DNA of 64,000 nucleotides, from positions 2,570,109 through 2,634,108 of the forward strand of contig CAIIXF020000003.1 of the NCBI GenBank assembly GCA_903813345.2. The letters are read 5' to 3'. Shown here in pieces: positions 10,349 through 64,000 of the stretch (within the stretch, counting starts at the first letter, position 1; every line of letters starts with the position of its first letter). The notes beneath the pieces were generated by a model that ran no database searches, was not told where the DNA came from, and worked only from the letters and a program-made list of their open reading frames with translations. Source of the stretch: Owenia fusiformis (Eukaryota; Annelida; Polychaeta; Sabellida; Oweniidae). The position numbers and the translations under genes are program-made.

Positions 10349-10539
10349 CAGGGGCGTAGTCAGCTTTTAGTCGGGGGGGGGAGGGGAGTGCGATTGCCCA
10401 AAAAAATTCGGTTTTCAGTCGGGGGTGCGATTGTGCCACAAACAAGCCAAAAATTAAGATTTATCTTGAATTTTACAAAAATTAATGCAACTTCCTTCAA
10501 CATTGAGCTAGAAGCTTCAAATGAAAAGCTACGCCTATG
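10349..10539. mobile_element. hAT-like MITE with CAGGGGCGTAG end
   Basis: The left end is CAGGGGCGTAGTCAGCTTTT and the reversed right end is CATAGGCGTAGCTTTTC. CAGGGGCGTAG is a widespread hAT-type terminus. The interior (ATGCAACTTCCTTCAACATT and following) recurs at about 43.12-43.19 kb. No target duplication is visible. Confidence 0.5.
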
Positions 10540-25022: not shown

Positions 25023-26293
25023 CATAGAGTCACAGAGTTTCATGCCCTCATATGAATATAATCGTAATATCATAGAGTTTCATGCCCTCATAGGAATACA
25101 ATCGTAATATCATAGAGTTTCATGCCCTTATATGAATACAATCGTAATATCACAGAGTTTCATGCCCTTATATGAATACAATCGTAATATCACAGAGTGT
25201 CATGCCCTTATATGAATACAATCGTAATATCACAGAGTTTCATGCCCTTAAATGAATACAATCGTAATATCACAGAGTTTCATGCCCGCATATTAATACA
25301 ATCGTAATATCATTGAGTTTCATGCCCTCATATGCATACAATAGTAATATCACAGAGTTTCATGCCCTTAATGAATACAATCGTAATATCATAGAGTGTC
25401 ATGCCCTCATATGAATACAATCATAATATCATAGAGTTTCATGCCCTCATATGAATACAATCATAATATCATAAAGTTTCATGCCCTAATATGAATACAA
25501 TCGTAATATTATAGAGTTTCATGCCCTCATATGAATACAATCGTAATATCATAAAATTTCATGCCCTAATATGAATACAATCGTAATATTATAGAGTTTC
25601 ATGCCCTTAATGAATACAATCGTAATATCACAGAGTGTCATGCCCTTATATGAATACAATCGTAATATCACAGAGTTTCATGCCCTTAAATGAATACAAT
25701 CGTAATATCACAGAGTTTCATGCCCGCATATTAATACAATCGTAATATCATTGAGTTTCATGCCCTCATATGCATACAATAGTAATATCACAGAGTTTCA
25801 TGCCCTTAATGAATACAATCGTAATATCATAGAGTGTCATGCCCTCATATGAATACAATCATAATATCATAGAGTTTCATGCCCTCATATGAATACAATC
25901 ATAATATCATAGAGTTTCATGCCCTTATATGAATACAATCGTAATATCACAGAGTTTCATGCCCTTAAATGAATACAATCGTAATATCACAGAGTTTCAT
26001 GCCCGCATATTAATACAATCGTAATATCATTGAGTTTCATGCCCTCATATGCATACAATAGTAATATCACAGAGTTTCATGCCCTTAATGAATACAATCG
26101 TAATATCATAGAGTGTCATGCCCTCATATGAATACAATCATAATATCATAGAGTTTCATGCCCTCATATGAATACAATCATAATATCATAGAGTTTCATG
26201 CCCTCATATGAATACAATCGTAATATCATAGAGTTTCATGCCCTCATATGAATACAATCGTAATATCATAGAGTTATCGCCCTCATATGCATG
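25023..26293. repeat. Tandem array, 40-bp unit, about 31 copies with higher-order blocks
   Basis: The unit reads CACAGAGTTTCATGCCCTTA then TATGAATACAATCGTAATAT. A run of marked variants (GCCCGCATATTAATAC, then CATTGAGTTTCATG, then ATGCATACAATAG, then CCCTTAATGAAT) recurs in the same order three times, which shows amplification of blocks several units long. Confidence 0.95.
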
Positions 26294-40227: not shown

Positions 40228-40246
40228 TTACGTTTAATTAATTAAT

Positions 40247-40267
40247 ATGCAGTTGCAGGAACTATGA
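40247..40267 (+). promoter_or_regulatory. Upstream ORF 2, stop overlapping the GPCR start
   Basis: ATG at 40,247 encodes MQLQEL, and its stop TGA (40,265-40,267) overlaps the receptor ATG (40,264-40,266) as ATGA. This arrangement is compatible with reinitiation or with suppression of receptor translation. Confidence 0.45.
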
Positions 40268-41799
40268 AAATACAACTCAATAAAAGCATGATTGTTAACA
40301 GTGGAGACAATGTGGCTAATGCCACAACATTCAACGGTGCCAGTATGATGGCTAATGCCACGGCGCTAACTAATGCAAGGATGGTGGCTAATGTTACAAC
40401 ATTAATGAAAACTGCTGGAGGCGCAACATTTAGGGTCCAATATGAATTTTTGCACATGTGGCTGATAATAATAGCGATTTTATCAATTGCTATGATAACA
40501 GTATTCGGCAATTGTATCGTCCTAGTGGCGTTCATATCAAATAGGAGCCTTAGAAAAGTGAGCAACAGTTTCATCATGAGTCTCGCTTCAGTGGATGCGC
40601 TGATTGGATGTATCCTCCCATTGAGAATGTTCGAAATGATATATGGACAATGGATCTGGTCTGCAGAGACATGTCAAGCTATGTTGCTCGTGGAGAATGC
40701 CTTGAGCAATACTTCAATGTTGAACATTCTTCTGATAAGCTTGGACCGTTGGTGGTGCGTCCATCGTCCTTTCCAGTACAGGGTTAGGCAGACTAAGACC
40801 AGGGCAATAGCGCTCATCGTATTTTCCTGGGTCTTAGGCTCCTTTATCTACGTACCTCCTATGTATTCGTGGCATGTGGTCCACGGGGAAAAGATCGCTC
40901 AAGTTTTTAGTCTCACAAGGAGCTGCCTGGTGCCTTATTCGGGAGATCTCTCCACGACTTTATCTCTATCAAGCGTTACGTTCCTAATTCCGTTGATTAT
41001 ACTAGCGCTTTGTAATTTATCGATTTATCTTAAAGTGAGCCATCGGAAAGATAAAAAATTGAGACGAAGTGTGAGCACATCCGATACATATTACAGTTTT
41101 GTTTCACGTAAATCATCTGCTGATACGGATACCTCAGACAGTGAAGAGGCTATAGGAACATCCCGGACAAAAACCTCTGAAAATGACAGAGGAAAGGACT
41201 GCACGAAAGCGAAATACGTCATGCTTGTGCGCAACAGTTCGACCCCCGGGGATTTGTGTCGGTACAGTCGACGCTACAGCCCGAGGCGGGTGTCATTCGA
41301 CGCGGGTGTGGTGAGTGGAATCGAGGATAAAAGACAAAATAGATACAGTCGTAGATTCAGTGTGAGCAGTAATAATTCGACCAATAGCACCACCAATAAC
41401 AGTGATGATATTGTGAAAAGCATCCTGACCAAACAGGATAAAAAGGCGGCAAGATTGCTCGGCCTTTTAGTTTGCGTATTCATAATGTGCTGGGTGCCTA
41501 AGGTCGTCTGCTCCATTATAAATGCTTATCACCATGGTGCCATTCCAAAATATATCAAAATACTACATATTGCACAATGGCTACAATGGTTAAACAGTGG
41601 GATCAATCCATTCCTATACGCAAACAGTAATACTAAATTCCGAAGAGTCATTCGGAACTGGATCGGCATTCCACCAGAAGATCGGCCAACTCCGTTATTT
41701 TACGAACTTTACCGAACTTTTCCGAAGGTGCTTAATTTTATAAGCGAAAATCAAAGTGACCAACAATCCAATACTAGTACGTTAAGGGCGATGTCTTAG
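40264..41799 (+). CDS. Class A GPCR, histamine H3/H4-like, single exon, 511 codons
   Basis: An intact seven-helix receptor for the plasma membrane. The N-terminus carries sequons at N6, N19, N31 and N43; the last three lie in a degenerate 12-residue repeat. Landmarks: GN in TM1 (N83), LASVD in TM2 (D111), C137 before TM3, DRW in place of DRY (D161-W163), W189 in TM4, C221 in the second outer loop, P243 and NLSIYL in TM5, CWVP in TM6 (W410), NSGINPFLY in TM7 (N448-Y452). NLSIYL, SMLNILLISLDR and WLQWLNS place it nearest histamine H3/H4 receptors, with muscarinic receptors next. Position 3.32, Asp in nearly all amine receptors, is Glu144, so the ligand may differ. The third inner loop is long (about 258-392) and rich in Ser and Arg. 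No intron is needed. Family is sure; ligand is inference. Confidence 0.93.
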   Translation: MKIQLNKSMIVNSGDNVANATTFNGASMMANATALTNARMVANVTTLMKTAGGATFRVQYEFLHMWLIIIAILSIAMITVFGNCIVLVAFISNRSLRKVSNSFIMSLASVDALIGCILPLRMFEMIYGQWIWSAETCQAMLLVENALSNTSMLNILLISLDRWWCVHRPFQYRVRQTKTRAIALIVFSWVLGSFIYVPPMYSWHVVHGEKIAQVFSLTRSCLVPYSGDLSTTLSLSSVTFLIPLIILALCNLSIYLKVSHRKDKKLRRSVSTSDTYYSFVSRKSSADTDTSDSEEAIGTSRTKTSENDRGKDCTKAKYVMLVRNSSTPGDLCRYSRRYSPRRVSFDAGVVSGIEDKRQNRYSRRFSVSSNNSTNSTTNNSDDIVKSILTKQDKKAARLLGLLVCVFIMCWVPKVVCSIINAYHHGAIPKYIKILHIAQWLQWLNSGINPFLYANSNTKFRRVIRNWIGIPPEDRPTPLFYELYRTFPKVLNFISENQSDQQSNTSTLRAMS

Positions 41800-42791: not shown

Positions 42792-44094
42792 TTTACAATA
42801 TGTAATAGCGATTGACCAGTTTTACGTATTTGACGTCACGTCATTTACGTAATCCATGTATCATTAAAATCGATTGTAGATCGTTCTTAAGTAAGCACAC
42901 TTATGTAAAATATGTGCAATAAATTGAAAAATATTAAAAATTGTTTTTTGATTGCCTAATTATTGTTATGAAACACGATGTGTACACAGTTATTGAAATA
43001 ATCGTGGCCCCCATTATCTATTTATTATCTTATTACGCTACAATTTCGTATGGATGTCATGAATGTAAAACGAACAGTCAGGGGTTGGGGGGGGGGGGTG
43101 CGATCCAAGAAAAAGATTTGTTTTGAATTTTACCAAAAATGATGCAACTTCCTTCAAAATTGAGCTAGAAGCTTCAAATAAAAAGCATTTTCAAGCTCTT
43201 TTCTTCTTCTATCTAGTGGTTTTAACTGGTTATAGGGGGGGGGGAGTGATGCGATCCATCGCATTTTCGTATTTCCACGTCGAGCACGTGCACCGTGCTA
43301 GTATATTAGTTAGAATTTTCATTAAATGCCGTATTGAGGAATTCGATAATGGTAGAAAGACAGTATCAGACATTGCTTCCTCAATCAAAATATCGTCAAA
43401 AGATAATTTTGATATCATTTGTATTCTGTTGTCATTTTTATACGGCTGTATAATAGACCTACAACATAACCAATGAGATTATCAGTCAAGCCACGAATCT
43501 CTTTCACATTTGATCAATGTAAAAGTTGAAAAAATGAAATTTTAGATTGAGATATAAATGCATATACCATTAGCCATGGGGTTAAAGAAGTGTTTCTCAA
43601 AATATTTTTATTACCCTTTAAACAATTACTTGATTGTGCATCAAAACATAAATATACTCTTAAATTGCTGGTGTCGATGATGGTGCATACATAGGCTTAC
43701 ATTGATTCATGTTTCAAAATTAATTTTGAGTTTAAAGATAAACTAATGTATTAAGTTTGAATTATTCAATCACATGAACAAAAATAAATTGCAATAGTTG
43801 TTGTTTATCTTAACAAGAGAATTTTATTAAGATAACCATTGAAATACATTGTTTTGAGTTTCCCTAAAGATAATTAATTTCAAGATTTTGTTTTCTAAGC
43901 TAAATAAAATGCCAAGTCAATTCGTCGATCGACAAAATGAATGTACAAATTAGACACATATGTCTTCTTACATCAAAATACAACATTGTTACGAATAGGT
44001 CAATCTCTCCTCCTTGTGATATTAAGTGTTATTTAACAGTGTCGCTGATGGTCGCTTAGGTTTTTAAACAATAACGTTTACATAATTTACACAT
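42792..44094. other. Intergenic with one shared repeat
   Basis: The part at 43,080-43,200 (GATGCAACTTCCTTCAAAAT and following, with G runs) is shared with the MITE at 10.35 kb. The rest is unremarkable. Confidence 0.45.
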
Positions 44095-51948: not shown

Positions 51949-53397
51949 ATGTCACCACCAAAAGTGGTGACATATTGTTATGGTCTCCGTTTTTTTGCGA
52001 CGGTGGTTGGCGTCCGGCGGTTGGTGGTTGGCGTCCGGCGGTTGGCGTCCGGCGGTTGGCGTCCGGCGGTTGGCGTCCGGCGTCTGTAACAATTTCTTAC
52101 AACTTCCTATAACTTAACAAATACTGTTTAGACTGACTTCAATTTTTTTCTAAATCATCTACATGTTCTCAGAAGTTCAAATCTGACTTTAGATTTGACA
52201 TTTGACCTTCAATGACCTTCTCAAGGTCAAAAAGGTCTTTTTTCAACTTGCTTCACATTGACTAAATTTTTTTTCAAAATCATCTACATGTTCTCAGAAA
52301 TTCAAATCTGACTTTAGATTTGACATTTGACCTTCAAATCTGACTTTAGATTTGACATTTGACCTTCAATGACCTTCTCAAGGTCAAAAAGGTCTGTTTT
52401 CAACTTGCTTCAAATTGACTAAATTTTTTTTTCAAAATCATCTACATGTTCTCAGAAATTCAAATCTGACTTAAGATTTGACTTAAGATTTGACATTTGA
52501 CCTTCAATGACCTTCTCAAGGTCAAAAAAGGTCAAAAAGGTCTGTTTTCAACTTGCTTCAAATTGACTAAAAAGATTTTTCAAAATCATCTACGTGTTCT
52601 CAGAAATTCAAATATGACTTTAGATTTGACTTAAGATTTGACATTTGACCTTCAATGACCTTCTCAAAGTCAAAAAAGGTCAAAAAGGTCTTTTTTCAAG
52701 TTGCTTCAAATTGACTAAATTTTTTTTCAAAATCATCTACATTTTCTCAGAAATTCAAATCTGACTTTAGATTTGACATTTGACCTTCAATGACCTTCTC
52801 AATGTCAAAAAAGGTCAAAAAGGTATTTTTTCATCTTCTTCAAATTGACTAAATTTTTTTTTCAAAATCATCTACATGTTCTCAGAAATTCAAATATGAC
52901 TTTAGATTTGACTTTAGATTTGACATTTGACCTTCAATGACCTTCTCAAGGTCAAAAAAGGTCTTTTTTCAACTTGCTTCAAATTGACTAATTTTTTTTC
53001 AAAGGCATCTACATGTTCTCAGAAATTCAAATCTGACTTTAGATTTGACATTTGACCTTTAATGACCTTCTCAAGGTCAAAAAAGGTCTGTTTTCAACTT
53101 GCTTCAAATTGACCAAATTTTTTTTTCAAAATCATCTACATCTTTTCAGAAGTTCAAATTTGACTTTACAAGTTCTCAGAAGTTCAAATCTGACTTTAGA
53201 TTTGACCTTTGACCTTCAATGACCTTCTCAAGGTCAAAAAGGTATTTTTTCAACTTGCTTCAAATTGACTAATTTTTTTTTTCAAAATCATCTACATGTT
53301 CTCAGAAGTTCTTCTTAAGGTCAAAAGGTATTTTCCAACTTGCTTTAAATTGACCAAATTGTTTTAGGTGGTGACATTTTGTCATGTTAATGCCTTG
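51949..53397 (+). repeat. 1.45-kb repeat block with ATGTCACCACC ends and internal tandem units
   Basis: It starts ATGTCACCACCAAAAGTGG and ends GGTGGTGACATTTTGTCATG then TTAATGCCTTG. Near the left is a 14-bp tandem (GGCGTCCGGCGGTT). The body is eight or nine variable units of about 120-150 bp containing TTCTCAGAAATTCAAATCTG and GACCTTCAATGACCTTCTCA. An inverted copy starts at 63.27 kb. It is probably a non-autonomous mobile repeat; the class is unknown. Confidence 0.7.
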
Positions 53398-53860: not shown

Positions 53861-55553
53861 CACAACGGAATAACCCAACAACGGTAAAGTCAGACACCGT
53901 TGTTAAAAATGGCGGACATTACCGTCGCTTCAAATATAATAGAGCGACTAGATTAAATTCCTTTGGTACTGCAATCCTGTATATTAAGTGTCAAATTATT
54001 AGGTCAAAATAGCACTTTTGAACAGCAAAATCTTCACAGTAATATTATAAAGATCCGAAAATATCTTGAGTAAAGGATCTCAGATTCTGAACATTACTTG
54101 AGTAAAATCTGTTGAGATCCGATGACATCGTCGAGTTAATGACGTGCTGATAATGAAATAGTGTTAAGGCTAATTTTGGGAGTTTTCCAACCTTGATTTA
54201 ATTGCCTTTATTGGAAGGGCTCCTCGTTATTAATACTATTGTAACATTTTGACCCAGACTGACACAACAGAAATAAGGCTATCAACACTGGAGGATAGGA
54301 ATAGCGCGAAATTGCATTTAAATCGATTATTATCCATATTTATTGATAAAAATAAATTTGTTTCAAGTTCCTAATCTCTATTGGTCAATCTTTTTTTTCT
54401 TTTTAGTAGCCGTTCTACTGATATCTTATTTTATTCAAAATTGAGAGCGAATGGGCATAACGGGTGTTTTAACTTTGCACATTTTAGGCCAATTAAAATA
54501 TATAACTTCTTTTCATATGTTTACCGTCTTGGAAGATACAAAATAACACGTACCAAAGTCATTGGATTATGAGCATAGTCAGATAGAAGTGATGATATCA
54601 TCAATAATGAAAATTATGATGATTCGAGTGAAAGCATGAATTCAATGTTTTAAAGAACTTTGCGAGACACAGACGTTGACGTATAATGCTGCGGGAATTA
54701 TATCATATTAACAGGACTTTTTGTGATATGCTTCATGTTATTATATGATCATCCGAAAGCTTACTCACTACCTCATCGGGTTTTACTCAATCGGAATACT
54801 CGGGCGGTAGCATCGGGTCCTATAGAATCGTACTTGTGGTATAATCGGGTCTTTCATTTTCAACTTTAACTGGTGATTTCAATGATATGCAACGTATGGC
54901 ATTGAAACAAATGTGATATATTTGCCTATTGTATCTTTGAATCAAATGGAGTAAATACAACCTTGGTTCTTACTTATTTAAGATGTAAAACATCATTCTA
55001 ATATTTAGAAGTTGAATTTAGCGATTTGATAGTAAATAATGCATAAAGTACTCATAATTCTGCAAACATGAGTGCCTGGAACAAAAACTATATCTGTTAC
55101 AAACAATGCTGTGTTTTATCTATTTCTCATATTGAGAAATTCAATATATAAATAGGAGTTTATGAACTTATCCCCTACATCTTCGAGTCTTTGCTCGGCG
55201 GTAGCTAGGTTGTATATACGCGGGTAGACTTTCCCCCGTGAATGCAATATATACACTATAGTCCGTTGTCGCATCTTACCATATGCAGTTGTCTTTGTAA
55301 ATTATTTCAAATTCAGATTCCGTTGTCATTGACAATATTGAAGACGCTATATTGTGGCGATTCACGACCCCATTTGATAGAAATTGGGATTTCATATAAT
55401 ACATCATCACATTAGCTTAACACATGCACAGAATTAGCGACGATGTAGTCCCATGAAACGAGGAAAAAGTGATTATAGAGGTGCAGCGACGGTTATGTCC
55501 TCCATTTTTGACAACGGTATCTGACGTTACCGTTGTCAGGCTATTCCGGTGTG
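53861..55553. mobile_element. 1.7-kb DNA transposon, non-autonomous, 5-bp target duplication
   Basis: The left end is CACAACGGAATAACCCAACA and the reversed right end is CACACCGGAATAGCCTGACA. The arms match for about 75 bp through ACCGTTGTTAAAAATGGCGG. ATTAA flanks both sides (53,856-53,860 and 55,554-55,558). The 1.5-kb interior is AT-rich without a transposase frame. The superfamily is not assigned. Confidence 0.8.
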
Positions 55554-55788
55554 ATTAAGTAAAAATAGCAATTGGCGAAACCCATTTTCTGCTTCATAAT
55601 GGTATACAACTACAGGTATGTGATGAGCATTTAGAGCCATTTAGATATAAAGTACCTTTATGTTAGATTAAAGTTTAAGCCTCTGGGTGTATACCTAATT
55701 TAGGGAAAAGCCATGTCCATGTGATACATACTGCTATGTATTTCATAATTGAGTGGGTTTGGGGTAGATACACAGCCAATCTCAAACT

Positions 55789-56012
55789 GTACTGTACAGC
55801 GCTGTTTTTGAAACAGTACTGTACAGCGCTGTAAAAACAGTGCTGTACAGCGCTGTTTTACAAAACAGTACTGTACAGCGCTGTAAAAACAGTACTGTAC
55901 AGCGCTGTTTAAAACAGTACTGTACAGCGCTGTAAAAACAGTACTGTACAGCGCTGTAAGATAAACAGCGCTGTACAGCGCTGTAAAAACAGTACTGTAC
56001 AGCGCTGTTTTT
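55789..56012. repeat. Left array of GTACAGCGCTGTAC palindromes, nine copies
   Basis: ACAGTACTGTACAGCGCTGT recurs nine times, spaced by short A/T runs. The 14-bp core is a perfect palindrome, and it overlaps a second one (AGTACT). Confidence 0.95.
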
Positions 56013-56214
56013 GACTTTGAAAATGATAAATATATTATATCATAATATATTCTGTTATAATAGAGGGTCAAGGGTATTTTATGTTTTGTTATTGATGTTT
56101 GATTACAAAGGCCACTTTTATCAAAAGGCATTAATTTTGTGTTTTCAAAACGGGAGGCCCAGAATGAGAAAACCAGGTATTATTGTTCTTATTATTTACA
56201 CTGCCAAAATAACT

Positions 56215-56405
56215 CCATGCTAAATCAGCGCTAATCTTTTTTCGCGCTAATTTAGCGCTGATTTGGTACTGAATTGGTACAAATAAAGTTTGTGTGGAAT
56301 TAGCGCTAATAAATCAGTACCAAATCAGTACAAACCTCAGTTAGTGCGAAATCAGCACTAACTTAGCAGTGCTAATTTAGTGCTAAGTTAGTGCTGATTT
56401 AGCAC
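56215..56405. repeat. Cluster of AGCGCTAA / AGCACTAA palindromic words
   Basis: AAATCAGCGCTAAT, TTAGCGCTGATTTGGTAC, and later AATCAGTACCAAATCAGTAC and GAAATCAGCACTAACTTAG alternate in both orientations. It shares the AGCGCT core with the neighbouring arrays. Confidence 0.8.
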
Positions 56406-56587
56406 TAACAAAACTTATATTTTTCTGACTTTTATTACAGTATTATTGATTGATTTAAGCAATATTGATATTACTTATTTAGAGTTTGAAATATTTTATT
56501 ATAAATAACATTCATTATTGTGATTTCTTCAATTGAGTTTGACATCTTAGGGAAATCCCTGGGAAATCCCTTTGAACTTTTGACCTA

Positions 56588-56690
56588 TGACGTCACACAT
56601 TCTATGACTCATACAGGAAGTTTGAGAAGCCACATATTTTAAATTTTGATTTCTGTGCCAGTCTCTGCCATCTGTCTGCAATTTTCACTT
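56588..56690 (+). promoter_or_regulatory. CRE, AP-1 site and splice donor inside the candidate element
   Basis: TGACGTCA (56,588-56,595) and TGACTCA (56,605-56,611) lie 9 bp apart. About 80 bp downstream is a strong donor, CTT|GTAAGTATAT, at 56,691. This could be the promoter and leader exon of a transcript that crosses the minisatellite. Inference only. Confidence 0.3.
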
Positions 56691-57315
56691 GTAAGTATAT
56701 ATTTGATTGTTTTGTATGAATAAATGAGCATATGTTAGGTGCACCTATTATATAGAAGACTTTCAAATACCAGATAGGCTCTCTGGGATAGGCTAGGGTG
56801 AAATTCAAAGATAAAAATTCAGGAGGAATTGAAAAAAAAATTCAAATTGAAAAGTCACTGAAAGTCTTGTCTTAAAAGTCCAGGGCATAGGCTAGTTCTT
56901 TGGAGTTTTTAAGAAAATATATTTATAATCTGCAATGCATAACGTCTTCTGAATGAAGCCAGAAATGGGCCAATCCTGGCCAAAATGTAATTTCTGAGTG
57001 ATTTCAGTTTTAAATTCAATTTTTTATTCTTTAGGCCTATATCGGGAATGCATTTCTAGGCTACCTTTTTATTTTATAGACTTGATGTTGGCACAATTGG
57101 TCAGATGTTGGCATATCATGAGGAGTGAAGGCAGTAAAGAATACAATACATAATCAATGGATGGAGGGCCATGTATCAGCAATGTGGAATGCAACCGGGA
57201 ATGCAACATACTTATGCCATTTAGGCTAGGTGCGTAAAGTAAACGTTTTAACAGTTTTAGGAAATCTAATAATAATTTATTTTGCTTATTCAGCGTATCG
57301 TTGGAATCGTGCCCC

Positions 57316-59210
57316 CATGTCATATTACCATGTTCATTTCATATCACCATGTTCCCATGTTATATCACCATGTTCATTTCATATCACCATGTTTCCATGT
57401 TACATCACCATGTCCATGTCATATCACCATGCTCCCATGTTATATCACCATGTTCATATCATATCACCATGCTCCCATGTTATATCACCATGTTCATTTC
57501 ATATCACCATGCTCCCATGTTATATCACCATGTTCATTTCATATCACCATGTTTCAATGTTACATCACCATGTCCATGTCATATCACCATGCTCCCATGT
57601 TATATCACCATGTTCATATCATATCACCATGCCTATGTTATATCACCATGTTCATTTCATATCACCATGTTCCCATGTTACATCACCATGTCCATGTCAT
57701 ATCACCATGCTCCCATGTTATATCACCATGTTCATATCATATCACCATGCTCCCATGTTATATCACCATGTTCATTTCATATCACCATGCTCCCATGTTA
57801 TATCACCATGTTCATTTCATATCACCATGTTTCAATGTTACATCACCATGTCCATGTCATATCACCATGCTCCCATGTTATATCACCATGTTCATATCAT
57901 ATCACCATGCTCCCATGTTATATCACCATGTTCATTTCATATCACCATGCTCCCATGTTATATCACCATGTTCATTTCATATCACCATGTTCCCATGTTA
58001 CATCACCATGTCCATGTCATATCACCATGCTCCCATGTTATATCACCATGTTCATTTCATATCACCATGTTCCCATGTTACATCACCATGTCCATGTCAT
58101 ATCACCATGCTCCCATGTTATATCACCGTGTTCATTTCATATCACCATGTTCCCATGTTATATCACCATGTTCATTTCATATCACCATGTTTCCATGTTA
58201 CATCACCATGTCCATGTCATATCACCATGCTCCCATGTTATATCACCATGTTCATATCATATCACCATGCTCCCATGTTATATCACCATGTTCATTTCAT
58301 ATCACCATGCTCCCATGTTATATCACCATGTTCATTTCATATCACCATGTTTCAATGTTACATCACCATGTCCATGTCATATCACCATGCTCCCATGTTA
58401 TATCACCATGTTCATATCATATCACCATGCTCCCATGTTATATCACCATGTTCATTTCATATCACCATGTTCCCATGTTACATCACCATGTCCATGTCAT
58501 ATCAATATGTTCCCATGTTATATCACCATGTTCATATCATATCACCATGCTCCCATGTTATATCACCATGTTCATTTCATATCACCATGCTCCCATGTTA
58601 TATCACCATGTTCATTTCATATCACCATGTTTCAATGTTACATCACCATGTCCATGTCATATCACCATGCTCCCATGTTATATCACCATGTTCATATCAT
58701 ATCACCATGCTCCCATGTTATATCACCATGTTCATTTCATATCACCATGCTCCCATGTTATATCACCATGTTCATTTCATATCACCATGTTCCCATGTTA
58801 CATCACCATGTCCATGTCATATCACCATGCTCCCATGTTATATCACCATGTTCATTTCATATCACCATGTTCCCATGTTACATCACCATGTCCATGTCAT
58901 ATCACCATGCTCCCATGTTATATCACCGTGTTCATTTCATATCACCATGCTCCCATGTTATATCACCATGTTCATTTCATATCACCATGCTCCCATGTTA
59001 TATCACCGTGTTCATTTCATATCACCATGCTCCCATGTTATATCACCATGTTCATTTCATATCACCATGCTCCCATGTTATATCACCATGTTCACTTCAT
59101 ATCACCATGCTCCCATGTTATATCACAATGTACATTTCATATCACCATGCTCCCATGTTATATCACAATGTACATTTCATATCACCATGCTCCCATGTTA
59201 TATCACCAGA
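57316..59210. repeat. Minisatellite, 40-bp unit, about 47 copies, higher order of 280 bp
   Basis: The unit is CATATCACCATGCTCCCATG plus TTATATCACCATGTTCATTT, itself two related 20-mers. The TTTCAATG variant recurs near 57,550, 57,830, 58,350 and 58,630, giving 7-unit (280-bp) blocks. All three plus-strand frames are open across the array (646-677 codons) and carry the same 40-residue peptide in different phases. There is no sign of selection for one frame, so it is not called a gene. Confidence 0.95.
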
Positions 59211-59863
59211 TATTATTTCGAACTTTAATTTACATTGGTAAGCAAATCTGCGAATATTCATAGAAAACTATATTTTCAGGTAACTGTTATCAGTTATAAC
59301 AACAAAAAGCTTGTGGTACCAGCATATAATCAATTTGAACCAAATCCGCCAACTGGTACTTGAGTTTTCAAAGATTACAATTTTTTATGAAAAATGGCTG
59401 CCATTTTGAAATTTAGTGGCCATCATCAAAATGTCTTCTTCAACAAAGCTCTATTGTCCTGAGGCATCAGCATATAAAATTTGAGTTATCAAAGATTTAA
59501 TTTTTTACAAAAAATGGCGTGCATTTTGAATTGAGTCGCCATATTGAAAATTGATAAGAGGTCAGAGGTTCTACACCGATAAGGCATTAGACTATAAATT
59601 TTCACAAATCAAATCGAATGTGTACCCATTATATTATTAATTATCCATCCATTATACTATTACTGTATACAATTTAAATATTGTGTCCACTACTTAGGCC
59701 TATATCTTATCTTACAAAATAAATATATATATAGGCCTATTCTATACCATGCCATTATAAAAAATGCTTCCAATTCAATATTTTCCTCAATAACTAGTAA
59801 TTGTTTGGGCGTTATCAGTTGCTCTATTCTACAAATGGACTTATTATTTCCTCTTGTTTTAAG

Positions 59864-59963
59864 ATACACACAAATGGAGAGAGAAACGCTGAACCGAAAA
59901 TGGGAGCAGGAAGCAACCAGAGCGGCGAATACAAGCACAACCGTTACAAGGACTGAATTATAA
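59864..59963 (+). CDS. Possible terminal coding exon, 29-codon end
   Basis: A pyrimidine-rich acceptor (TTTCCTCTTGTTTTAAG) precedes a GC-richer segment. From the ATG at 59,874 it reads MERETLNRKWEQEATRAANT and ends TRTEL and a stop. An AATAAA follows at 60,065-60,070. The charged, helix-like tail resembles the end of DNA-binding proteins carried by some transposons, but it is too short to assign. The upstream coding exons, if any, were not found. Confidence 0.3.
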
Positions 59964-60329
59964 AATTAAAATAGAACTTTTTGACATTAGGACATTTGTA
60001 ATTTTTAACAATAGGCTCAGACTTCCGTAACACTATAGTATCTGATATATTTTGTATATTTCTAAATAAAATATAGGTTTTGTATTAGTATTTAATATTG
60101 AGTGTTTTGTATATTTATGGGGACAACAAAATAATCATTAAATACAAAATCCAAGTAGTAAATGCAATTATATAGCCTACAATACACCAATATTAGGATC
60201 AAAGCATTTTGAATTTGATACCCATTAATATTATATATATAATAGAAATGAATACAACTAAATAAAAACCAGGGAATCAACCTGAAACCAAAAACATAAA
60301 TTCCTAAAGGGGCCTAGCCTATAAAAATT

Positions 60330-60480
60330 AAAAACAGCGCTGTACAGCGCTGTTTTAGTACAGCGCTGTACAGCGCTGTATAAGCTACAGCGTTGTACAG
60401 CGCGGTACTCAAATTGTACTGTTTTGTACTGTTAATACAGCGCTGTACAGCGCTGCAAACAGCGCTGTACAGCGCTGCAA
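60330..60480. repeat. Right array of CAGCGCTGTACAGCGCTG palindromes
   Basis: CAGCGCTGTACAGCGCTG occurs four times plus one degenerate copy, ending 31 bp before the proposed right terminus. Here the palindrome is doubled, unlike the left array. Confidence 0.9.
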
Positions 60481-60840
60481 GATGATGATGCGGATTGGGG
60501 GTGTATCACCCGGAATATATATCATCTCTGAGGAGCGGGCAGGATATTTTGTATTTGTACCGCTCTAGGCCAAATGCGGGCAGATGTAATATATCCATCC
60601 CGCTCCCGGGAATTTTTTCAAAAGTTTAAAAAAGTTTAAAAATTTTAAAAATTTAAATTTCAGAAGTTTAAAATTTTTCAAAAAGTTTAAATGTTACAAT
60701 TTCATTGTATTGAACTGAAGGAATATTAAGAAAATGTTAAATATAAATTGTGCTTTTACAGTATGGGCCTATCTTGTCATTTGAAAAAAGGTGGTAAAGG
60801 TTTTATCTAGCCCAAACCCACTCAAGTATGAGATACACCA

Positions 60841-63264: not shown

Positions 63265-64000
63265 ACAAGGCATTAACATGACAAAATGTCACCACCTAAA
63301 ACAATTTGGTCAATTTAAAGCAAGTTGAAAAAATACCTCTTGACTTTTTTTGACATTGAGAAGGTCATTGAAGGTCAAATGTCAAATGTAAAGTCAGATT
63401 TGAACTTCTGAGAACATGTAGATGATTTCGAAAAAAAAATTAAGTAAATTTGAAGCAAGTTGAAAAAAGACCTTTTTGACCTTGAAAAGGTCATTGAAGG
63501 TCAAATGTCAAATCTAAAGTCAGATTTGAACTTCCGAGAACATGTAGATGATTTTGAAAAAAAAATTAGTCAATTTGAAGCAAGTTGAAAAAAATACCTT
63601 TTTGACCTTGAGAAGGTCATTGAAGGTCAAAGGTCAAATCTAAAGTCAGATTTGAACTTCTGAGAACTTGTAAAGTCAAATTTGAACTTCTGAAAAGATG
63701 TAGATGATTTTGAAAAAAAATTTGGTCAATTTGAAGCAAGTTGAAAACAGACCTTTTTGACCTTTTTTGACCTTGAGAAGGTCATTAAAGGTCAAATGTC
63801 AAATCTAAAGTCAGATTTGAATTTCTGAGAACATGTAGATGATTTTGAAAAAAAAAATTAGTCAATTTGAAGCAAGTTGAAAAAATACCTTTTTGACCTT
63901 TTTTGACCTTGAGAAGGTCATTGAAGGTCAAATGTCAAATCTAAAGTCAAATCTAAAGTCATATCTGAATTTCTGAGAACATGTAGATGATTTTGAAAAA
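63265..64000 (-). repeat. Inverted copy of the 1.45-kb block, cut by window end
   Basis: It begins CAAGGCATTAACATGACAAA then ATGTCACCACC, the exact reverse of the right end at 53.4 kb. It continues with the same TGACCTTGAGAAGGTCATTG units. The internal unit order also follows the 53-kb copy in reverse, so the two are closely related copies about 9.9 kb apart. Confidence 0.85.

Follow-up and report, generated by a model that had tools for sequence, protein, structure and literature searches.

A young TA-inserting composite DNA transposon of Owenia fusiformis and its clan of elements with common tips and differing subterminal arrays

Introduction

The window analysed here is a stretch of 64,000 nucleotides of the annelid Owenia fusiformis (assembly GCA_903813345.2, contig CAIIXF020000003.1, positions 2,570,109 to 2,634,108 of the forward strand), and positions are given as those of the window unless another locus is named. 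At 55771..60503, on the + strand, it holds a non-autonomous DNA transposon of 4733 bp, here called FAM1, which comprises terminal inverted repeats, a palindromic array behind each end, part of a second nested family (FAM2), a promoter-like block, a minisatellite and a putative terminal exon. The original prediction, made from the letters of this stretch, had proposed a non-autonomous transposon, and this has been borne out by copies with sharp borders, differing flanks and empty sites. FAM1 is a young cut-and-paste element, and its mobility is documented by the comparison of copies described below.

Borders, copies and target site

The element starts as TA|CACAGCCAATC (from 55769) and ends as GGATTGGGGGTG|TA (to 60505), while the sequence beyond these borders varies copy by copy. 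Alignments of sister copies end, flanking TA included, at 55769 on the left (55768 in L013, which overruns by one chance base) and at 60505-60507 on the right. Terminal inverted repeats, although imperfect, are present at the ends of the aligned copies: the left one, CACAGCCAATC (55771..55781, + strand), is identical in 9/9 left ends displayed, and the right one, reading inward CACCCCCAATCCGC (60490..60503, - strand), in 7/7 right ends displayed and also in L006. Similar inverted termini had been predicted with the string GGGT-GATACAC; the similarity is real, but the border falls inside that string (55771/60503), and its GGGT-GATAC portion, once counted among the termini, lies in the flank.

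The set of FAM1 loci was defined by the exact 18-mer CAGCGCTGTACAGCGCTG, which occurs at 34 places in the 498-Mb genome (control 0), that is, in the window and in ten other loci, all of them extracted; copies without the exact 18-mer escape this definition, and another fragment, devoid of array, is found at C329. The match to the window ends at the left border in eight of the ten loci (L005, L006, L008, L009, L010, L012, L013 and L014) and at the right border in seven (L005, L006, L007, L008, L010, L011 and L012), with 0-2 chance bases beyond; the right end of L006 was read directly from the sequence, BLAST having dropped its final part. Both borders are kept, with different flanks, in five of the ten other array-bearing loci (4.1-7.2 kb), so that the predicted existence of copies sharing both borders is confirmed. 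L011 shares only its last 121 bases with the FAM1 of the window and may be a short sister member, and the right ends of L009 and L013 were not found within the stretches read.

Including that of the window, the six full copies measure 4127, 4131, 4737 (window), 4741, 5236 and 7247 bp, both TA counted, and are scattered with the other FAM1 copies over several contigs, with unrelated flanks and constant ends. Substitutions with respect to the window amount to 0.5-0.8% (aligned blocks >250 bp, minisatellite excluded), indels being additional, which is taken here to reflect recent movement.

Two of these copies have empty sites. L006 was inserted in a tandem repeat, whose element-free units read AATATC-TA-AGGGACG at the corresponding point, and for L010 the two flanks, put together around one TA, align across the joint with unoccupied repeats (window 43140-43248, 84%, and 10482-10529, 86%). 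In both the empty site contains a single TA, and thus FAM1 inserts at TA and duplicates it, as established for these two copies; the clean empty site with a target duplication that had been sought as a check is thereby provided. The left (55769..55770) and right (60504..60505) copies of the duplication in the window are assigned on the basis of L006 and L010, not of an empty site of the window copy itself. For the remaining full copies no empty site was found among the sequences compared.

Subterminal arrays of FAM1

The facing arrays of palindromes that first drew attention to the locus are both real and far above shuffled expectation, although the unit had been drawn too long. The proposed 14-mer, GTACAGCGCTGTAC, gives 20 matches at ≤2 mismatches versus 0.02 in shuffles, but within the window only the match at 60358 is exact, and the remaining 19 have 1-2 mismatches. 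The repeat is better described by a palindrome of 10 bp, in most cases doubled at 10-bp spacing (ACAGCGCTGT/ACAGTACTGT). The left array (55784..56010) comprises 17 ten-bp units of the type ACAGYRCTGT, mainly as 10-bp-spaced doublets: ten are ACAGCGCTGT, six ACAGTACTGT and one the imperfect ACAGTGCTGT, and 8/16 successive spacings equal 10 bp. The right array (60332..60480) is formed by ten ACAGCGCTGT-like units in five doublets, six of the units being perfect ACAGCGCTGT. Counting perfect 10-bp palindromes of any kind, 18 are found on the left and 10 on the right, versus shuffle means of 0.73 and 0.57. Moreover, per 100 bp the degenerate hexamer RGYRCY occurs 6.7 times in the left array versus 0.18 times in the whole window.

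The nested family and the core of the element

Between the arrays, an AGCGCT cluster had been reported; it is present, and its identity is corrected here to the left end of FAM2. The part of this family lying in FAM1 (56197..59316, + strand), which has related places elsewhere in the genome, consists of the left end TA|CACTGCCAAAATAACTCC, a core and the minisatellite, the right end being missing. Its subterminal array (56225..56410) is made of TTAGYRCTAA / TCAGYRCTGA-like units, often 11 bp apart and many of them imperfect; it has 10 RGYRCY in 224 bp, versus a shuffle mean of 1.04, and a single perfect 10-bp palindrome. Elsewhere, 22 places begin near the FAM2 left end (query 179-194), and three copies read fully (3226-3633 bp) agree in the right tip, each within separate flanks. 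A further copy, L039, reaches 9.3 kb and is enlarged by inserted frames that, judged by their translation, resemble reverse transcriptases of the long interspersed nuclear element (LINE) type.

All six full FAM1 copies carry the left part of FAM2 starting at TA, and the FAM2 right end is absent from FAM1, which is thus a composite element. Since the nested part is found in six out of six full copies, these appear to have moved after the nesting, by means of the outer ends. In L014, the FAM1 left end continues up to exactly the FAM2 TA and is then followed by other sequence (TTATTATTTA|GGCC versus TTATTATTTA|CACTG in the window). This locus fits a FAM1 site unoccupied by FAM2, though it may instead be a truncated copy, and an empty site for FAM2 within FAM1 is thus probable. 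The right end of L014 was not found; beyond the border it matches C4:29380563-29382693 at 99%, from query base 1285 onward only, and its contig may represent another haplotype of that place.

As for the interior, the cAMP response element (CRE), AP-1 site, splice donor, minisatellite, small frame and AATAAA that had been listed are all present as sequence. The conserved promoter-like block (56517..56760, + strand) includes the CRE (56588-56595), the AP-1 site (56605-56611) and the splice donor GTAAGT (56691-56696), and is common to FAM1, FAM2 and a third family, FAM3. Two FAM3 copies agree with the window at 234/242 and 233/242 positions over this block, and at 256/285 and 256/288 over 56761-57080, with 64 and 94 gap columns. 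The minisatellite (57310..59208; 40-bp unit, 47.5 copies) also occurs in FAM2 and FAM3 copies. A second minisatellite of 40-bp period, with 31.6 copies of a different unit, lies at window 25030-26289.

The putative terminal exon (59864..60085, + strand) shows an acceptor-like AG, a 29-aa frame from the ATG at 59874 to the stop at 59961-59963, and an AATAAA at 60065-60070. The open frame containing the 29-aa frame had no Pfam match. The peptide was tried as a lead to the parent gene and abandoned, as its eight matching places genome-wide are all FAM1 copies or FAM1-related fragments. Core block and terminal exon are read here as putative opposite ends of a gene that has since been lost.

A clan with common tips and differing arrays

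FAM1 belongs to a larger clan with the border pattern TACAC(A/T)GCCAA ... GCGGATTGGGGGTGTA. The right 16-mer including TA is found at 251 places at ≤1 mismatch (control 1), and the left-end pattern at 496 (control 29); 100 right and 100 left ends were listed. Of the right ends, 20 were sampled first and ten more later, as an unseen set. At least five array types stand behind the one type of tip in this genome: ACAGYRCTGT in FAM1; TTAGYRCTAA-like units in FAM2; ACGGTACCGT doublets in FAM3 (L040, 3713 bp, and L041, 4558 bp); GGCACC units in FAM4, with members of ~170 bp whose right tip, TTTTGGGGGTGTA, agrees with the clan tip in its last 11 letters only; and ACAACGTTGT in L052 and L065. The length of the array varies among copies and among members of the clan. 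The shortest member, L052, has 64 bp, both TA included, and members of 64 and 90 bp still carry a doublet, imperfect in L052. Perfect 10-bp palindromes are abundant in FAM1 and FAM3.

Of the five array types, all but the ACAACGTTGT type have the hexamer RGYRCY in common. The inner sequence of the 20 sampled right ends, 3200 bp in total, contains it 74 times, versus 10 times in 8000 bp of control stretches. As it had been chosen after these ends were seen, it was tested on the ten unseen ones, where it occurs 46 times in 1600 bp and is present in 9/10; 2000 background draws from window 1-55000 gave 2.07 on average and 10 at most. In this unseen set it ranks first of 432 equally degenerate palindromic hexamers.

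Two further arrangements of clan members were encountered. The locus G000:C2:2242492-2254162 has three units ~4.2 kb apart, each with a shared core and a clan right end, and is probably a tandem array of clan elements. At L063:124-2563, two mirror-oriented FAM4 members of ~170 bp stand in a larger inverted repeat enclosing a frame that is read as mariner-like (DDE_3 only at E 0.12). A TACACAGCCAATATAA tip pair at C2:2741923/2744362 had been considered as a 2.4-kb autonomous element, and was discarded because it corresponds to two ~170-bp FAM4 members within a larger inverted repeat.

Proposed mechanism

We consider it probable, with good though not full confidence, that FAM1 is a young, TA-inserting, non-autonomous composite belonging to a clan of equal tips and varied arrays, and that it operates by the following steps. 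FAM2 would have inserted into FAM1 and lost its right end, after which the outer FAM1 ends would have mobilised the whole. One transposase common to the clan, or several close relatives, would cut the constant tips. The palindromes, 10-11 bp apart, would lie on one helix face and be bound by a dimeric protein that pairs both ends and is either a TNPA-like helper or a portion of the transposase itself. The families may then diverge by changing the inner letters of the palindromes together with the binding protein. Finally, a gene carried by an autonomous parent would have been lost except for the promoter-like block, the splice donor, the last exon and the poly(A) signal, a situation comparable to that in the deletion derivatives of Spm.

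That the arrays are binding sites of a transposase or another protein, and act as an address, is what we infer from their structure. A more specific form of this proposal is offered tentatively, as possible and somewhat short of an even chance: in a TA-inserting CAC...GTG clan, the tip would be uncoupled from the address, the former staying unchanged and the latter consisting of doubled 10-bp palindromes (in many cases ACNNNNNNGT, as a rule with the core RGYRCY) that switch between families as a code for a coevolving dimeric protein; nesting, as of FAM2 in FAM1, would change the address and keep the cargo.

Several results weigh against the main interpretation. RGYRCY was picked after several families, the first 20 ends among them, had been inspected, and it is absent from three of those 20 (L043, L052 and L060). 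Three of the ten unseen ends (L066, L072 and L073) are near-identical, and another, L065, lacks the hexamer and carries ACAACGTTGT. Perfect 10-bp palindromes amount to 1 on the left and 5 on the right in FAM2, and to none in the two FAM4 members examined. Furthermore, the 29-aa frame is interrupted by a stop in 2/8 copies. To these are added two outcomes of the search for a transposase: the 21 distinct frames of FAM1 and FAM2 copies scanned gave no significant Pfam match and no transposase, and, among the domain matches compared (PF13613 38/58, PF02992 9/14, PF13358 23/40, PF13359 62 of at least 150), none lies <11 kb from the 100 listed right ends.

Search for a transposase

Frames ≥70 aa were listed for FAM1 and FAM2 copies, with the histidine-rich frames of the minisatellite filtered out, and frames ≥110 aa for FAM3 copies. 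Apart from the 21 scanned, the FAM1 and FAM2 list largely repeats these frames from sister copies or contains frames of the arrays. The interiors of FAM1 and FAM2 and the truncated loci L007, L009, L011 and L014 yielded only chance-level Pfam matches, under the curated cut-offs. The strongest match, BLTP1_N (E 1.5e-12, below its cut-off), was given by a frame beside the right end L058, which is taken to be a host gene. No frame with C(2)C and H(3-4)H DDE motifs or with a tnp2 domain was recognised in the copies read, and Rfam returned no family at gathering score in 55500-60800.

Transposase-domain frames do exist in the genome: 58 for PF13613, 14 for PF02992, 40 for PF13358 and at least 150 for PF13359. 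The distances were compared for matches on C1-C8 against 100 of the 251 right ends, and for PF13359 mainly with those not represented by PF13613; among these, the nearest to a listed right end lie at 50.6 kb (PF02992), 11.1 kb (PF13358), 39 kb (PF13613) and 34 kb (PF13359). The autonomous relative encoding a transposase, which was to be looked for as a check, was not found in the frames scanned or, within the subsets compared, near the listed right ends.

Further candidates were rejected. The tnp2-domain (PF02992) element, whose nine 608-aa frames score equally, was considered as a partner and has a right end, ATTTCGCCGGGGT, unrelated to the clan tip; a frame located ~6 kb upstream from the right end of L007 belongs to a separate low-copy repeat (7 matches); and the long FAM2 copy L039 was dismissed as enzyme source because its extra length consists of the frames resembling reverse transcriptases. 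The tnp2-domain element is an observation in its own right: it is represented by L062:1534-6453 (G000:C1:24241133-24246052), open frames of 608 aa occur at its nine places, TGAATATTCA palindromes and ~150-bp repeats stand before its right end, and two copies are identical over the stretches compared.

Comparison with known systems

Non-autonomous elements are classified largely by terminal sequences, duplications and other structure, according to PMC4455052. As described in PMC2613891, TNPA recognises the subterminal repeats in CACTA elements, deletion derivatives transpose in trans, and the subterminal repeats and their binding protein have been proposed to diversify behind conserved tips. 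PMC12730594 gives the CMCT group tips CA..TG in most cases and target duplications of 2-5 bp, and names ESTA and PHISTA as lineages that duplicate TA.

By its structural marks, namely CA(C) tips, a duplication within 2-5 bp (TA) and subterminal repeats, the clan is CACTA-like, and by analogy it would work most like Spm/CACTA, the nearest model. With CACTA/EnSpm (Spm/En, Tam1, soybean Tgm) it shares the CAC-starting tips, the short duplication and the constant tips with diverging subterminal repeats, and the movement of CACTA deletion derivatives in trans offers a further likeness. It differs in that its duplication is TA (2 bp) and in its motifs, which in the account of soybean CACTA have a GC-rich and an AT-rich part, whereas in FAM1 and FAM3 they consist of 10-bp palindromes in doublets. 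Moreover, no tnp2-type transposase was recognised in clan copies, and the tnp2 element of this genome, L062, has a different right tip. ESTA and other CMCT lineages resemble the clan in their mostly CA..TG tips and 2-5 bp duplications, that of ESTA being TA; however, the three ESTA families in the same study, on fungi, carry TET/JBP genes and were identified through their transposase (PMC12730594), whereas none was recognised in the clan copies read. A search of the open-access literature for the clan tips and array words found no paper on them among those listed, which within that scope is no proof of absence; of 39 papers holding one or more of six such words, the 15 listed bear unrelated titles.

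The TA target also admits another affiliation. Duplication of TA is typical of Tc1/mariner elements, whose miniature inverted-repeat transposable elements (MITEs) are short derivatives, and the TA duplication of FAM1 agrees with this mark. The clan could accordingly be a derivative of Tc1/mariner or of ISL2EU/Harbinger (PHIS), moved by a TA-inserting transposase of either group, with the arrays as an unusual addition. Many PF13359 and some PF13358 frames are present in the genome, and TA is duplicated by some Harbinger-like (PHISTA) elements (PMC12730594). We regard this affiliation as doubtful, though with a real share of the probability: no compared DDE_3 frame lies <11 kb from the listed right ends, and no compared PF13613 or PF13359 frame lies near them; the clan differs from MITEs of the Tc1/mariner kind in its long palindromic subterminal arrays and CAC tips, and CAC...GTG tips together with subterminal repeats fit CACTA-like elements better.

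Alternative explanations of the arrays

Arrays of this kind could also be passive, having grown in tandem behind the ends by slippage or gene conversion, as minisatellites do, with the palindromes as by-products. The differences in array length between copies and members, the ordinary minisatellite contained in the same element, the excess of indels over substitutions between copies and the scarcity of perfect palindromes in FAM2 and FAM4 would all suit such growth. Nevertheless, it is judged unlikely, somewhat more so than the affiliation just discussed, as it does not account for the same motif at both ends of one element with differing motifs among families of the same tip, nor for a symmetry that survives the change of motif in FAM1, FAM3 and the ACAACGTTGT type. 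RGYRCY is also sparse in the FAM1 interior (2 in 1990 bp), and the doublet is retained in the smallest members, of 64 and 90 bp, if imperfectly in L052.

Host transcription factors are an improbable source of these motifs. The arrays would then serve the expression or silencing of the element, not its movement; short palindromes do suit host homodimers, and the block with CRE, AP-1 and splice donor is conserved in FAM1, FAM2 and FAM3. Yet arrays stand at both ends, even in members whose length of 64-264 bp leaves no room for the shared core block, and their motif switches between families. Chance or a local satellite, suggested by the abundance of tandem repeats in the window (70 rows), is already refuted by the sharp borders, the copies on several contigs and the empty sites, and retains almost no probability.

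The clan offers no fewer than five kinds of array behind a single type of tip, together with young copies and a minimal member of 64 bp. The diversification proposed for CACTA thereby becomes directly testable, and the FAM1/FAM2 composite shows a route by which an element can gain new ends through nesting.

Other features of the window

Tandem arrays of a 126-156-bp unit, similar-looking by eye and in opposite orientations, flank FAM1 at window 52223-53311 and 63347-63966. Finally, window 40246-41799 contains an open frame of 517 aa which, from its translation, resembles a seven-helix receptor.

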